A DNA stretch of 42,374 nt from positions 1 to 42,374 of IMG/VR virus record IMGVR_UViG_3300025425_000045; one strand, 5' to 3'. This DNA comes from a virus. Below the pieces are notes generated by a model. It was not told the DNA's origin and did no database searches. It saw nothing but the letters and a program-made list of their open reading frames with translations. Positions within the stretch are counted from its first letter, which is position 1. Each line of letters begins with the position of its first letter. Below, piece by piece: positions 1,385-30,141 of the stretch. The translations under genes were made by a program, and so were the position numbers.

Positions 1385-1899
1385 ATATTTTTAGAGCACA
1401 AATAAAAAAAGACATTATAGATCTTTCTTTGAGCACAATACAAGATATGAAAAAGTCTATGAACGAAGTAAGTTGGAACTGCGATATACGAACATCATTC
1501 AACCTTACCGACAACATATTAAATATTAAAGAATTATGGCCATTAAAATTTTCTATTCTTGAAAGCATACATGCGTACATGTTGAACAATAATAAGTTTT
1601 TTGAAGGATATATAAAAAAGTCTTGGGTCAATATATATGAAAAAGGTTTTTATCAAGAGTTTCATAATCATAAAGATGAAATTGTAAAATATATTTGTGG
1701 TGTGGTTTATTTTACACCTATGTCAAGTTCAATAGAGTTTGGCATTGAAGAGAGGATTGAGCACAAACCTGAAGTTGGTGACATTTTAATTTTTAATGAC
1801 GATCAATTACATAGAGTTTTACCTCACAAAGATAGTGATTTAAGAATAAGTTTAGCTTTTAATTATCAAAAAATAGACACATGGAAAGGACTTAAATGA
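1381..1899 (+). CDS. 2-oxoglutarate/Fe(II) oxygenase, TIGR02466-like
   Basis: This 172-residue protein carries the pattern SWVNIYEKGFYQEFHNHKD followed by GVVYF, as in the TIGR02466/2OG-FeII_Oxy_5 group common in marine phages. His95 and His97 lie in FHNHKD, the distal His144 in DQLHRVLPH, and Arg155 in LRISLAFN, which should contact 2-oxoglutarate. It starts with ATG overlapping the preceding stop (ATGA) and overlaps the halogenase by 4 bases, so expression should be coupled. It is paralogous in layout to the gene at 4363-4965. The substrate is unknown; in marine phages such enzymes are usually annotated without a target. Confidence 0.85.
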   Translation: MNIFRAQIKKDIIDLSLSTIQDMKKSMNEVSWNCDIRTSFNLTDNILNIKELWPLKFSILESIHAYMLNNNKFFEGYIKKSWVNIYEKGFYQEFHNHKDEIVKYICGVVYFTPMSSSIEFGIEERIEHKPEVGDILIFNDDQLHRVLPHKDSDLRISLAFNYQKIDTWKGLK

Positions 1900-3380
1900 A
1901 GATTTGTATACTAGGGGGAGGTACAGCAGGTTTTATGACTGCAGCGACATTAGTTAAATTATTTCCACAACATGAGATAAAACTTATAGAGTCTCCTCAA
2001 GAAAAAACTGTTGGTGTCGGTGAGAGTACAATATTAGGTTTTAGGTCATGGCTTAAACTTTTAGATATCAAAGATGAAGACTTTATGAGAGATTGTAATG
2101 CTATTTACAAACTAAGCATAAAGTTCACTGATTTTTATAAAAAAGGTGAGAGCTTTCATTATCCATTCGGAGAAATTAAATATCCTTTAGATGATTGGTG
2201 GTTATGTAAAACAGCAGACTCTGATTTACCTATTGATACCTATGCTTCTTATAATTATGAGGCCATGACTCAAATAGAGTCAGGACTAATGCACGAGCAC
2301 GCTGATTTTAAAAAAGAAACTGCTTATCATTTCGATGCAAAGCTTTTTGCCGATTGGCTTAAAAAAAAATATTGCATACCTAAAGGGTTAAAATATATCT
2401 CGGAGCATATCAAAGATATTGAACAAGATGATAATGGAATAAAATCACTGAATGGAAAACATGAAGCCGATCTTTACATAGACTGTACAGGTTTTAAATC
2501 TATATTACTTGGAGAAACTCTTAAAGAACCTTTTGAATCTTATGAAGATTTATTGCCAAATAATTCAGCTTGGGCAACTAAAATACCTTACAAAGATAAA
2601 GATAAAGAATTAGTGCCGTACACAAATTGCACTGCTCATAATAATGGATGGATATGGAATATACCTTTGTGGAATAGAATTGGTACAGGTTATGTTTATT
2701 CAGATAAATTTACTAGTGATGAAGATGCATTGTCAGATTTTAAAAATTATCTAGGAAAAAAAGATTTGGAGTTTAATAAAATAAAAATGAGAGTGGGAAT
2801 ACATAGAAGACTGTTTGTAAAAAATGTATGCGCTGTTGGTTTATCTGCTGGTTTTATCGAACCTTTAGAAAGTAACGGTTTATACACTGTTCATCAGTTT
2901 TTAATTACTTTAGTTAGACAGATGCAAAGAGAAAAGATAAGTCAATGGGATAAAGACAACTATACATTTGGTTGTAAAAAAATATTTAAACCATTTGCAG
3001 ACTTTGTAGCTCTTCATTACGCTTTATCACATAGAACTGACACACCTTATTGGAAAGCAAATTTTAATAAAACTTGGGATGAAAAATTGTATACATTACA
3101 GCCTACGTCAGTTTACACCTTATTAAATCACGCATTTTTAAGAGATGAAAATTTTTCTTTTGACACACAAGGAGGAGCACATTGTATAGCGACAGGTATG
3201 AATTGGAAACCTAATGATGAAAATATGATAAAATTACAGGACATTACAATGAAAGATATAAAAGAAAGGGCTGAAGAAATAATGAAACAATTAAAGGAAA
3301 GAAAGGAAAAATGGAAAAAAGAATGTAATGAAGAAGGTGTTTCATTTCATGATTTTCATAAACATAATGTTTATTACTAA
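1896..3380 (+). CDS. Flavin-dependent tryptophan-type halogenase
   Basis: This 494-residue protein has full family length. The N-terminal FAD-binding GGGTAG lies at residues 7-12, VGVGEST at 39-45, and the halogenase hallmark WxWxIP is present as WIWNIP at 252-257. Lys76 in YKLSIKF aligns with the catalytic lysine region of PrnA (Lys79), and GFIEPLESNGLY matches the segment carrying the PrnA catalytic glutamate. The family uses FADH2, O2 and halide to make hypohalous acid that halogenates an aromatic substrate. A cyanophage enzyme of this family (VirX1 of Syn10) has been shown to iodinate varied substrates. No flavin reductase gene is visible, so host FADH2 is probably used. It sits in the middle of the oxygenase cassette. 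Substrate unknown. Confidence 0.93.
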   Translation: MKICILGGGTAGFMTAATLVKLFPQHEIKLIESPQEKTVGVGESTILGFRSWLKLLDIKDEDFMRDCNAIYKLSIKFTDFYKKGESFHYPFGEIKYPLDDWWLCKTADSDLPIDTYASYNYEAMTQIESGLMHEHADFKKETAYHFDAKLFADWLKKKYCIPKGLKYISEHIKDIEQDDNGIKSLNGKHEADLYIDCTGFKSILLGETLKEPFESYEDLLPNNSAWATKIPYKDKDKELVPYTNCTAHNNGWIWNIPLWNRIGTGYVYSDKFTSDEDALSDFKNYLGKKDLEFNKIKMRVGIHRRLFVKNVCAVGLSAGFIEPLESNGLYTVHQFLITLVRQMQREKISQWDKDNYTFGCKKIFKPFADFVALHYALSHRTDTPYWKANFNKTWDEKLYTLQPTSVYTLLNHAFLRDENFSFDTQGGAHCIATGMNWKPNDENMIKLQDITMKDIKERAEEIMKQLKERKEKWKKECNEEGVSFHDFHKHNVYY

Positions 3381-26258: not shown

Positions 26259-26306
26259 TCTAAAATTCCTTTCTATGAAATTATGGTTAATTATAACAAA
26301 TTATTT

Positions 26307-26357
26307 GCTATAGACACAGTAAAAAATAAGGCCCCTATATGTACGCGAGGGGCCCCT
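26307..26357 (-). terminator. Terminator of the small-gene operon followed by a truncated cleavage-site motif
   Basis: On the minus strand GGCCCCT pairs with AGGGGCC (7 bp, 11-base loop), followed by TTATTTTTTA: a good intrinsic terminator. Directly after it comes GTGTCTATAGC (26317-26307), the same motif found before the ribosome binding sites of the operon, here without AGGAGG. Its TATAGC is a perfect complement of the GCTATA arm of the hammerhead ribozyme at 29266-29271. Confidence 0.7.
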
Positions 26358-26727: not shown

Positions 26728-26780
26728 TTTAAATGGCCTCCTTTTGCCATAGACACTTAGGGGCCCGCGTAAGGACCCCT
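26728..26780 (-). promoter_or_regulatory. RBS-hairpin module, copy 1
   Basis: Minus-strand order: an 8-bp hairpin AGGGGTCC/GGGCCCCT with one U-G pair (26780-26759), then GTGTC (26756-26752), then TATGGC, AAAAGGAG, GCCAT and the start codon. ATGGC and GCCAT pair and place the Shine-Dalgarno in the loop. The U-G pair would be a C-A mismatch in the opposite strand, so the minus-strand RNA is the functional one. Confidence 0.8.
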
Positions 26781-27047: not shown

Positions 27048-27099
27048 TCTGAATGGCCTCCTGTTGCCATAAACACTAGGGGTCCGCGTAAGGACCCCT
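27048..27099 (-). promoter_or_regulatory. RBS-hairpin module, copy 2
   Basis: Minus-strand order: perfect 8-bp hairpin AGGGGTCC/GGACCCCT with loop TTACGC (27099-27078), then GTGTT (27076-27072), then TATGGC, AACAGGAG, GCCAT and ATG 27047. This copy has GTGTT instead of GTGTC; GUU is still an allowed, weaker hammerhead cleavage triplet. Confidence 0.8.
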
Positions 27100-27673: not shown

Positions 27674-27728
27674 TTTAAGTAGCCTCCTGTTGCTACAAAC
27701 ACATACAGGGCCCCTAAGGGCCCTGTAT
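27674..27728 (-). promoter_or_regulatory. RBS-hairpin module, copy 3
   Basis: Minus-strand order: perfect 11-bp hairpin ATACAGGGCCC/GGGCCCTGTAT (27728-27703), GTGTT (27702-27698), then TGTAGC, AACAGGAG, GCTAC and ATG 27673. The RBS stem is GTAGC/GCTAC here rather than ATGGC/GCCAT, a two-position compensatory change. Confidence 0.8.
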
Positions 27729-28038: not shown

Positions 28039-28086
28039 TTTAAATGGCCTCCTGTTGCCATAGACACAGGGCCCCTAAGGGCCCTT
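28039..28086 (-). promoter_or_regulatory. RBS-hairpin module, copy 4
   Basis: Minus-strand order: 7-bp hairpin AGGGCCC/GGGCCCT with loop TTAG (28085-28068), GTGTC (28067-28063), TATGGC, AACAGGAG, GCCAT, then ATG 28038. Identical to the consensus throughout the RBS part. Confidence 0.82.
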
Positions 28087-28330: not shown

Positions 28331-28375
28331 ATTAGGTAGCCTCCTGTTGCTACAGACACAGGCCCCGAAGGGCCT
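28331..28375 (-). promoter_or_regulatory. RBS-hairpin module, copy 5 (UUCG tetraloop)
   Basis: Minus-strand order: AGGCCC-TTCG-GGGCCT (28375-28360), which as RNA gives a very stable cUUCGg tetraloop, then GTGTC (28359-28355), TGTAGC, AACAGGAG, GCTAC and ATG 28330. The UUCG loop exists only in the minus-strand RNA (the other strand reads CGAA). Confidence 0.82.
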
Positions 28376-28566: not shown

Positions 28567-28632
28567 TTTTGATGGCCTCCTGTTGCCATAGACACTTATT
28601 AAGTTTGAGACGCGGTGGGAGAACCGCGCCTC
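28567..28632 (-). promoter_or_regulatory. RBS-hairpin module, copy 6, with double hairpin
   Basis: Minus-strand order: 9-bp hairpin GAGGCGCGG/CCGCGTCTC with one G-U pair (28632-28607), a short ACTT/AAGT hairpin, GTGTC (28595-28591), TATGGC, AACAGGAG, GCCAT, then ATG 28566. The hairpin sequence differs from the other copies while the RBS part is unchanged. Confidence 0.78.
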
Positions 28633-28645
28633 GTGGAAGGAATTT

Positions 28646-29179
28646 TTAAGCTCTTTTTTGAAGTCTTACTTCATGCTCATAGTAAAGGTCACCGTTGATA
28701 TGTCTTACAAGCTGATATAAGTCATCTTGTTTAGCATACGCCTCGATCTCCCAAGGTCTCTCTCTATAGTCGATTGCATCAACCAACCCTATCTCTTGGC
28801 CGTCCCATCTAGCATGGAGTTGTTTATCACTCTTCCATACTCTCCACTGAACTTTTCCAGTCACTCTTTGGTGGACGTGGATAAGTTCGTGGGCCAAAGT
28901 TGTAAGGAGTTGTCTTGATCCTCTGTCCCAGTCTAGAACAATCTTATGTTCCTTTTGTTTTTTACAACCGTTTAGAATACAAACAAAAGCACCTACAGTA
29001 GTTCCCTTAAGAACTGTTTTTCTTAAGTGAATTTTTAAGTTCAAAGTGTTTTGAAGTTTTCTGCTCATAAGAGCGTCAAGGAGGATCCTTGTTGCTCTAT
29101 TGATAAGTTCAACTTTGTGGTCGTCTCTTTCATTTCTTGGTAAAGAAATTTGAAGTTTTAATTTTTCGTTGATTTTCAT
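28646..29179 (-). CDS. SprT-like zinc metalloprotein
   Basis: A 177-residue protein with the zinc protease signature His97-Glu98-Leu-Ile-His101 (LAHELIHVHQ) and a downstream acidic motif RPWEIEAYAKQ (Glu144/Glu146) that may give the third ligand. Between them is WRVWKSD and ARWDGQ, as in SprT-like and related phage proteins. The family cleaves DNA-bound or cross-linked proteins, or host regulators; either is possible here. It is the first gene of the minus-strand operon, and its ribosome binding site lies directly after a hammerhead ribozyme cleavage site. Confidence 0.82.
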   Translation of the reverse strand: MKINEKLKLQISLPRNERDDHKVELINRATRILLDALMSRKLQNTLNLKIHLRKTVLKGTTVGAFVCILNGCKKQKEHKIVLDWDRGSRQLLTTLAHELIHVHQRVTGKVQWRVWKSDKQLHARWDGQEIGLVDAIDYRERPWEIEAYAKQDDLYQLVRHINGDLYYEHEVRLQKRA

Positions 29180-29188
29180 ATTGAATAG

Positions 29189-29279
29189 CCTCCCGTGCTA
29201 CAGACACAGGGCCCTTATATAAGGACCCTATCATATACGTGTTTCGGCCATTAAGGCCTCATCAGTATAGCTTTGGAGG
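29189..29279 (-). ncRNA. Hammerhead ribozyme (type I) overlapping the SprT-like gene's ribosome binding site
   Basis: On the minus strand all core elements are present in order: GCTATA (stem I, 29271-29266), CTGATGA (29265-29259), stem II GGCC-TTAAT-GGCC (29258-29246), GAAA (29245-29242), stem III CAC with GTG closed by a 9-bp AGGGTCCTT/AAGGGCCCT hairpin, then TC with cleavage after C29203, and TGTAGC (29202-29197) completing stem I (6 bp, one G-U). A15.1-U16.1 and C15.2-G16.2 pairs are intact. Stem I extends after an internal loop (AAA/ACG) by CCTCC (29279-29275) pairing with GGAGG (29193-29189), the Shine-Dalgarno of ATG 29179. After cleavage TAGC/GCTA can instead form the RBS hairpin seen in the other modules. 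Confidence 0.9.
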
Positions 29280-30141
29280 TTTGAAACTTTTACCACCTGG
29301 TGGTGGTGTGGCATCCTCTGTCGATACCCTCTCGGAATGGTGTCTCTGTTATCCATCAAGTTCGCCCTTTAGACTTGCCCCTGTTTTGTTCGCCTCAGGG
29401 CCTCTTGGTCTATCATCATTTGATGATAAGTTAATGTACCATATGGGTCGGTACGGTCAAGTATAATCGACATAATAAATTAAACTTGTAGACCATTATG
29501 GTCTACCTAATTAGGTTGGTGACCCAAATTCAAGGTTAACGGACCGCGGAGCCAGGAACGATTTTAAGAAGGCTAGAGTTGTCAAGTTTTTTTTTGAGAG
29601 ATAATTTTCATGTCAGAGTTTAAAAGGCCTCTGTAGGTCTCTTATATGGTAAATTATGGTACGGTTTGAGAAGACTCTAAAATTGACTGAAAAATAAAAA
29701 CGGTTTAAATCAACGGAGAGGGGCTTGTTAAGGGTTCTCATGTATGTTTTTATATCATATCGTACTATACGCTCTACGGCTCTTAAACCAGGGAAATTCA
29801 GCGTTTCATATTATGGAACAAATTCGGATCGTGGATCGTGAACCGTGGTGAGTGGAACGGTGGAACAGTACTAGAGGTTTTTTGAAAAAATAAAAAATAA
29901 AAAAATATTTTCTTAGAAAAGAAGTGTGGCACTGTTCCATTCGTCTAGAATAGTTGAGAAATATGGTAAAACCTGTCCACAGTACTAATTTAGGAAGTGT
30001 GGCAAGTGTTCCATTCTCTCTAGGCAATTAGACTGTTTTTAGTATAAATTTATTATACTAATAATAATCTCGAAAAAAACTCTAGTAACGATTTGCTGGC
30101 TTGATTTGTTTCACATTATGAAATAATGTAACGGTGTATTT
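29280..30141. other. Long non-coding control region between divergent operons
   Basis: About 860 bases with no convincing gene. The part at 29280-29530 is unusually rich in G and C and foldable on the minus strand, where it would be the leader of the ribozyme-led operon: ACCACC/GGTGGT, GGTATC/GATGCC, CCCTG/CAGGG and GTAGACCA/TGGTCTAC hairpins. A TTGACA (29585-29580, minus) and a TTGACC-16-TACATT pair are weak promoter candidates. The part at 29800-30110 has an AT-rich tract (29880-29920), repeated TGGAAC/GTTCCA motifs and two long direct repeats. It is a candidate early promoter and replication origin region. Confidence 0.5.
29814..30019. repeat. Clustered TGGAAC/GTTCCA motifs and direct repeat
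   Basis: TGGAAC occurs at 29814, 29853 and 29861 and its complement GTTCCA at 29934 and 30008. The last two lie inside a longer direct repeat: GAAGTGTGGCA at 29921-29931 and again at 29994-30004, each followed within three bases by TGTTCCATTC and then by TCTAG. The AT-rich tract lies between the two orientations. The arrangement suits iterons or a multi-site operator. Confidence 0.55.

Follow-up and report, generated by a model that had tools for sequence, protein, structure and literature searches.

A putative natural multi-target hammerhead ribozyme in polycistronic phage operons

A hammerhead ribozyme (HHR) encoded at the head of a minus-strand operon in the viral contig IMGVR_UViG_3300025425_000045 (hereafter the window, i.e., the whole stretch of 42,374 nucleotides that was analyzed) is followed by seven copies of its substrate half that lack a catalytic half, and the same type of arrangement, with different guide sequences, recurs in three unrelated phage families. 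These observations suggest that the element is a natural multi-target hammerhead, which probably cuts the polycistronic phage mRNA gene by gene. To our knowledge, natural hammerheads have so far been known only as self-cutting RNAs, and a multi-target trans form has been regarded as a product of engineering. A search of open-access papers, which takes in few subscription journals or preprints, turned up no report of a single catalytic strand that faces many orphan substrates. If correct, this interpretation would imply a new, protein-free form of polycistronic mRNA processing in which a single catalytic strand addresses up to 11 substrates, would provide a concrete job for the numerous phage hammerheads, and would outline a route from a cis ribozyme to a multi-substrate enzyme, via rows of cis HHRs and then one ribozyme with half-sites.

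A type I hammerhead with a distinct architecture

The ribozyme occupies positions 29279-29189 on the minus strand, where the succession of CCTCC, AAA, GCTATA, CTGATGA, GGCC, TTAAT, GGCC, GAAA and CAC is followed by a hairpin, GTGTC↓TGTAGC (the arrow marks the cleavage site, here and below), ACG and GGAGG. A search with a covariance model made from 18 HHRs, all from unrelated phages, identifies (with the filters off) a single HHR in the window, at 29272-29196, with a score of 58.1 bits and an E-value of 1.6e-13; the runner-up match scores 13 bits. The hammerhead is real, and the core and the model match bear out the claim of a complete type I HHR that had been made in a sequence-only reading of this DNA.

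The core CUGANGA...GAAA is present, with H17 at the cleavage site, and there are three helices, with stem I open. The distal stem I strand CCTCC (29275..29279) is the complement of the leaders' Shine-Dalgarno sequence, as indicated by the fold and by pair counts (helix 7); the guide arm GCTATA, the 5' strand of stem I (29266..29271), pairs with all three target variants described below; and the catalytic strand (29239..29265) comprises CTGATGA, stem II GGCC/GGCC with the loop TTAAT, GAAA, and the stem III arm ACAC. This catalytic half (CTGATGA...GAAAC) occurs only once in the window. It is followed by the hairpin GGGTCCTT-ATAT-AAGGGCCC (29209..29228), which competes with stem III in the predicted fold, and by the first substrate half, GTGTC↓TGTAGCA (29196..29207), delineated by the sequence and the covariance model; judging from the letters, cleavage would indeed occur after C29203, as originally proposed. 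The distance of 23 nt between this predicted cut and the ATG at 29179 is also right, and the ribozyme does lie on the ribosome binding site: stem I consists of 6 bp and a distal helix, formed between CCUCC on the ribozyme strand and GGAGG, that covers the Shine-Dalgarno sequence. The same reading described a long stem III closed by a 9-bp hairpin; a hairpin (of 8 bp) is there, but stem III itself is weak (ACAC/GUGU, with a spacer of 10 nt before the hairpin), a property that proves to be central to the interpretation given below.

Compensatory changes are seen in stem II across ten relatives, in which 97% of the cells of the whole predicted structure are paired. In stem I, a U-A pair is replaced by U-G, and the stem III pairs are invariant and hence uninformative with respect to compensatory change. 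Records that encode a closely related version of the downstream protein (83-98% identity) retain the HHR at the same position. By its core and fold, the element is a hammerhead; by its architecture, it is a new variant.

A search of the window element with Rfam yields a score of 17 bits, below the curated cut-off, for a part of the element only. Formally, the element thus fails the score-threshold check suggested in the sequence-only reading, but this outcome says little either way, given that Rfam likewise returns no hit in eight other phage loci with textbook HHRs (L022, L014 and L029 among them), so that its silence does not count against an HHR. Type I hammerheads are abundant in IMG/VR phage contigs (at least 120 stretches), and none of those tested is reported by the Rfam models at the gathering score. 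For guide variants of the form GCYRYA, the other eight matches are not HHRs. A tRNA/tmRNA search detects no such genes, and a DNA similarity search against phages and plasmids reveals nothing near.

The first gene of the operon (28646..29179, minus strand) encodes a protein of 177 aa and would be an early gene. It was called SprT-like on account of its HELIH motif; the motif is present, but the SprT name is unconfirmed, given that no Pfam family is matched above the cut-off and no function is known for the matching PHROGs. Upstream of the ribozyme, there is a structured, multi-helix 5' RNA domain (29280..29425, minus strand) that covaries according to the alignment and pair counts and has no match in Rfam. 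It is preceded by a promoter-like element, TTGACC-16-TACATT with TG before the -10 (29433..29460, minus strand), which is a consensus match only and is conserved in several relatives. In the window clade and in most of family A (see below), a structured RNA with covarying pairs begins near the promoter-like site and has the ribozyme as its 3' end; in L008, L036 and L124, a different 5' sequence replaces this domain. A regulatory or stabilising function of the 5' domain is plausible.

Orphan substrate halves in the operon and its relatives

Downstream of the ribozyme and on the same strand, the window contains seven further substrate halves of the form GTGTH↓TRTRGCA, all without a catalytic half. 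Six of the seven are located 24 nt before a start codon, namely GTGTC↓TATGGCA at 28584..28595, 28056..28067 and 26745..26756 (before ORFs of 59, 101 and 78 aa, respectively), GTGTC↓TGTAGCA at 28348..28359 (76 aa) and, with U17, GTGTT↓TGTAGCA at 27691..27702 (119 aa, DUF7222) and GTGTT↓TATGGCA at 27065..27076 (59 aa). The operon-terminal half-site, GTGTC↓TATAGCA at 26306..26317, has neither a Shine-Dalgarno hairpin nor a start codon. Altogether, the minus strand of the window carries 8 half-sites and its plus strand none, and the 24-mer leader pattern appears by chance zero times in 100 shuffles. The view that one cis ribozyme serves one gene finds no support in that form, given the seven recurrences of the substrate half without a catalytic half and the predicted opening of the ribozyme's own stem III; the leader of the SprT-like gene appears to be merely the first of about eight targets.

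The operon-last half-sites (in the window and at L138 4514, L141 4411 and L217 2682) are located directly after a hairpin and are followed by a TTGTTATAAT-like promoter element. In L138, L141 and L217, the hairpin before the last half-site is accompanied by a T-run.

Family A (guide TCCAAAGCTATA) has one HHR at the operon head and, farther downstream on that strand, up to 11 orphan half-sites. The covariance model finds only one HHR per operon searched, with the half-sites running downstream of it, and the reversed half-site pattern is represented by 0 matches in all 13 records searched. A search for the half-site leader that does not require a ribozyme returns the known members along with new contigs. 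L213 and L218, which were found via their half-sites, carry an intact variant ribozyme with CTGAGGA and a new, compensated stem II; position 7 of the hammerhead is variable. The L005 contig ends downstream of the expected ribozyme position, and the L214 fragment has just one site, close to its start. In G034 (L220, G034:3600-4000), a run of 10 N, an assembly gap, is located exactly at the expected ribozyme site, which might reflect difficulty in assembling the structured region.

The only opposite-strand matches, perfect half-sites at G003 30729 (L136) and G008 35242 (L137) that were considered as targets belonging to other operons, lie inside coding sequence (RSVSMAP) in both related phages and, in view of this location, are probably chance matches; if real, they would represent a target in another transcript. 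There are two matches with G17 (L008 and L036), both away from the operon.

Two other families combine different guides with different targets. Family B has the guide GGTTAA; its half-sites, GGTGTCTTAACC, stand roughly 16-24 nt upstream of the ATG and lack the Shine-Dalgarno hairpin seen in family A. Family C (L165, an ArdC operon) has the guide GTAATA and three half-sites, GTGTCTATTAC. No protein similarity is detected between families A, B and C at an E-value of 1e-4. Of the sites matched by the A guide, 79 are in A and none in B; for the B guide, 41 are in B and 1 in A. Each guide thus fits mainly its own family, and guides and targets have changed in concert across unrelated lineages.

The last observation is pertinent to the possibility that the 12-mers are promoters, either for a phage RNA polymerase or early ones, placed beside stem-loops in the manner of T4-type mobile promoter/stem-loop cassettes. 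Such cassettes, as well as the RNase III sites of T7, resemble the window system in having stem-loops between early genes and in the segmentation of phage mRNA, but they are protein-driven or promoter elements without a ribozyme core. The repetition of the motif before genes and after terminator-like hairpins is what would be expected of promoters; however, the motif varies between the families exactly as the ribozyme guide does, and the site sits within the leader, at a nearly constant distance ahead of the Shine-Dalgarno sequence. Moreover, no RNA polymerase is found among the 20 window proteins searched, and a scan of the region for promoters of the sigma-70-like type shows no excess (14 matches vs 14.3 in shuffles), so that an early promoter for each cassette, as in the T4-type case, is not seen above chance. 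A promoter function of the 12-mers thus appears highly improbable.

The phages L126, L129 and L053, which are related to family B by guide, possess a complete HHR for every gene, suggesting that the trans form derives from rows of cis HHRs. The existence of phages with the same guide and one HHR per gene also agrees with another scenario, namely that full HHRs were once present at every gene and the orphan half-sites are decayed, functionless relics left after the loss of the catalytic halves. Damage to catalytic halves can indeed be observed in L057 (2763, 5030), where there is one HHR per gene and two catalytic halves look damaged (a CCGATGA core and an unrelated stem II) next to intact substrate halves; this phage is possibly an intermediate towards the trans design. 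Relics are expected to decay, yet among the nonredundant sites exact matches and matches with one mismatch number 74 vs 6 in family A and 19 vs 0 in family B, and the loss of catalytic halves combined with the retention of substrates is a prediction of trans rescue. There is, accordingly, very little chance that the half-sites are relics.

Open stem III and pairing with the half-sites

Each HHR collected was folded in cis as an RNA running from 10 nt upstream of the core up to the cleavage site. The mean pairing of stem III is 0.17 in families A, B and C (n=18) vs 0.94 in other phage HHRs (n=125), with a Mann-Whitney p of about 1e-16 that serves as a guide only, related sequences not being independent. 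In the window clade, the probability of a cis stem III is near 0, and the minimum-energy fold assigns the 3' strand of ACAC/GUGU to the hairpin; folding predicts capture of this strand by the neighboring hairpin in all three families. The stable, loop-closed cis stem III that is usual in phage type I HHRs, although not strictly defining because trans hammerheads lack one, is predicted to be missing here. One of the control HHRs, L009 (contig G031), is likewise predicted to have an open arm but lies close to the end of its contig; half-sites GTGTCTATTAC would be expected farther downstream. L124 has TTGTC at the site of the ribozyme itself and GTGTC at all ten orphan sites, so that the C15.4 pair, the fourth of stem III, is possible only in trans.

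The half-sites follow the NUH rule: position 17 in the nonredundant family A sites is C in 68 cases, U in 3, A in 3 and G in 0. The base after stem I, a position outside the search pattern, is A in 74/74 sites of family A and 19/19 sites of family B; the same unpaired A is found in 93 of 97 ordinary cis HHRs with a 6-bp stem I, and its conservation would fit a tertiary contact with loop II. The family A guide GCTATA is invariant, its own site is TGTAGC, TATGGC or TATAGC, and all three variants pair with it; the best reordering of the guide covers 29 sites vs 79 for GCTATA. The two variable purines that face a guide U are AG in 33 sites, GA in 30 and AA in 20, with GG in 0/83 (Fisher p 1e-9), an absence for which hairpin stability could be an alternative cause.

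A stable hairpin is located directly upstream of the half-sites (mean z of -5.0 in A and -2.7 in B). Unconstrained co-folding produces pairing in full register at many sites. Certain features weaken the multi-target interpretation: in the window, both arms are fully formed at 1/7 sites only, the binding energies are only modestly better than those of shuffled sequences, and the trans stem III of family A is limited to 4 bp. Folding further predicts that, in the window clade, the spacer captures the free guide arm (UAUAC/GUAUA). Another competitor, for the target of the guide, is the leader hairpin RURGC/GCYAY.

These data can be weighed against an explanation without trans action, under which the hammerhead works in cis only and the hairpin, the 12-mer and the Shine-Dalgarno hairpin make up a repeated leader cassette that serves translation or mRNA ends, its likeness to a substrate half going back to the origin of the HHR on the first copy. 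In this case, too, copies made from a single leader would have sequence in common with the first one, and it fits such a cassette that the leader hairpin of family A (RTRGC/GCYAY) covaries in its own right and that the copies resemble shuffled cassettes. However, the 12-mer is kept at sites without a Shine-Dalgarno sequence or a start codon, and in family B it is present without such a hairpin; several half-sites are not followed by a gene start, and their conservation therefore requires more than translation. The opened stem III, the NUH rule, the invariant A and the trans-only pair of L124 are left unexplained, as is the absence of GG, with the reservation regarding hairpin stability. Overall, a cis-only hammerhead with a repeated cassette seems rather unlikely.

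Proposed mechanism

If the element is a multi-target hammerhead, the minus-strand RNA 29434-29203 would be a structured leader with an open-armed hammerhead at its 3' end. The first cut would be made in the adjacent half-site, after C29203, freeing the mRNA of the SprT-like gene and leaving a hairpin-closed 5' RNA that bears the ribozyme. The catalytic strand may then pair with the orphan GUGUH↓URURGCA sites via the guide GCUAUA and the arm ACAC and cut them, on the same polycistronic transcript or on others. The upstream pieces would terminate in GUGUH with a 2',3'-cyclic phosphate, preceded by a stable hairpin, and the downstream mRNAs would begin with a 5'-OH and one U, to which family A adds a short hairpin with the Shine-Dalgarno sequence in its loop. 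The transcript would thereby be divided into mRNAs of one or two genes with protected ends, with likely consequences for mRNA stability and translation.

A more far-reaching version of this scheme can be put forward only tentatively. The freed leader of ~230 nt, composed of the covarying 5' domain, the ribozyme and the 3' hairpin, might be a stable multiple-turnover enzyme that cuts many phage mRNAs intermolecularly, perhaps under the control of the 5' domain. This would be an RNA-only, guide-addressed form of mRNA processing that could have evolved from rows of self-cleaving hammerheads on three or more occasions.

Relationship to known ribozymes

A hammerhead with catalytic and substrate strands separated in sequence, as in the window, is said to have been described by Martick et al. 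in 2008, namely the discontinuous hammerhead of mammalian Clec2 mRNAs; unlike the window system, it reportedly combines a single strand with a single site, both within the same 3' UTR. RNase P RNA differs in its unrelated fold, its hydrolytic chemistry and its protein partner. It is, nevertheless, a natural trans-acting ribozyme and, similarly to the element described here, has many substrates (PMC5839562). Engineered trans-cleaving hammerheads (e.g., PMC6412130) also have open arms and recognize the substrate by two short helices but are artificial; most natural HHRs self-cleave (PMC6412130).

The closest known counterparts are the type I hammerheads of phages and prophages, which include clusters that flank genes (Perreault et al. 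2011, PMC3088659); the role proposed there for clusters of complete cis HHRs is to cut long phage transcripts into gene-length mRNAs. These HHRs share with the window element the core, stem II, the cleavage-site rule, the location in phage operons and the proposed role. There, however, a full cis ribozyme is provided for each cut, whereas here one catalytic strand with its own stem III opened faces many substrate halves. HHphage of the haloviruses HF1 and HF2 (PMC3088659) is similar in that the HHR heads an early polycistronic transcript, with 13 nt between it and the first ORF, and the 5' end has been mapped within 3 nt of the cut. It differs in its atypical core, and the passages considered describe no orphan half-sites.

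As for the wider distribution, HHRs are present in bacterial genomes, and the orphan-site array was not found there. Among cultured phages, no HHR is detected in the family B relative C75C1 or in the first 50 kb of each of the pelagiphages HTVC023P, HTVC027P, 023Pt_psg01 and DSL-LC04, which are related to the window by terminase. The cultured Pelagibacter phage Jormungand EXVC012P (L131 8003-8065) carries a complete type I hammerhead upstream of a MarR-like regulator gene (49 bits with model R1). The virus of the window infects marine bacteria, and on its plus strand (1896-3380) it encodes a tryptophan halogenase-like protein (phrog_2928, E 4e-145).
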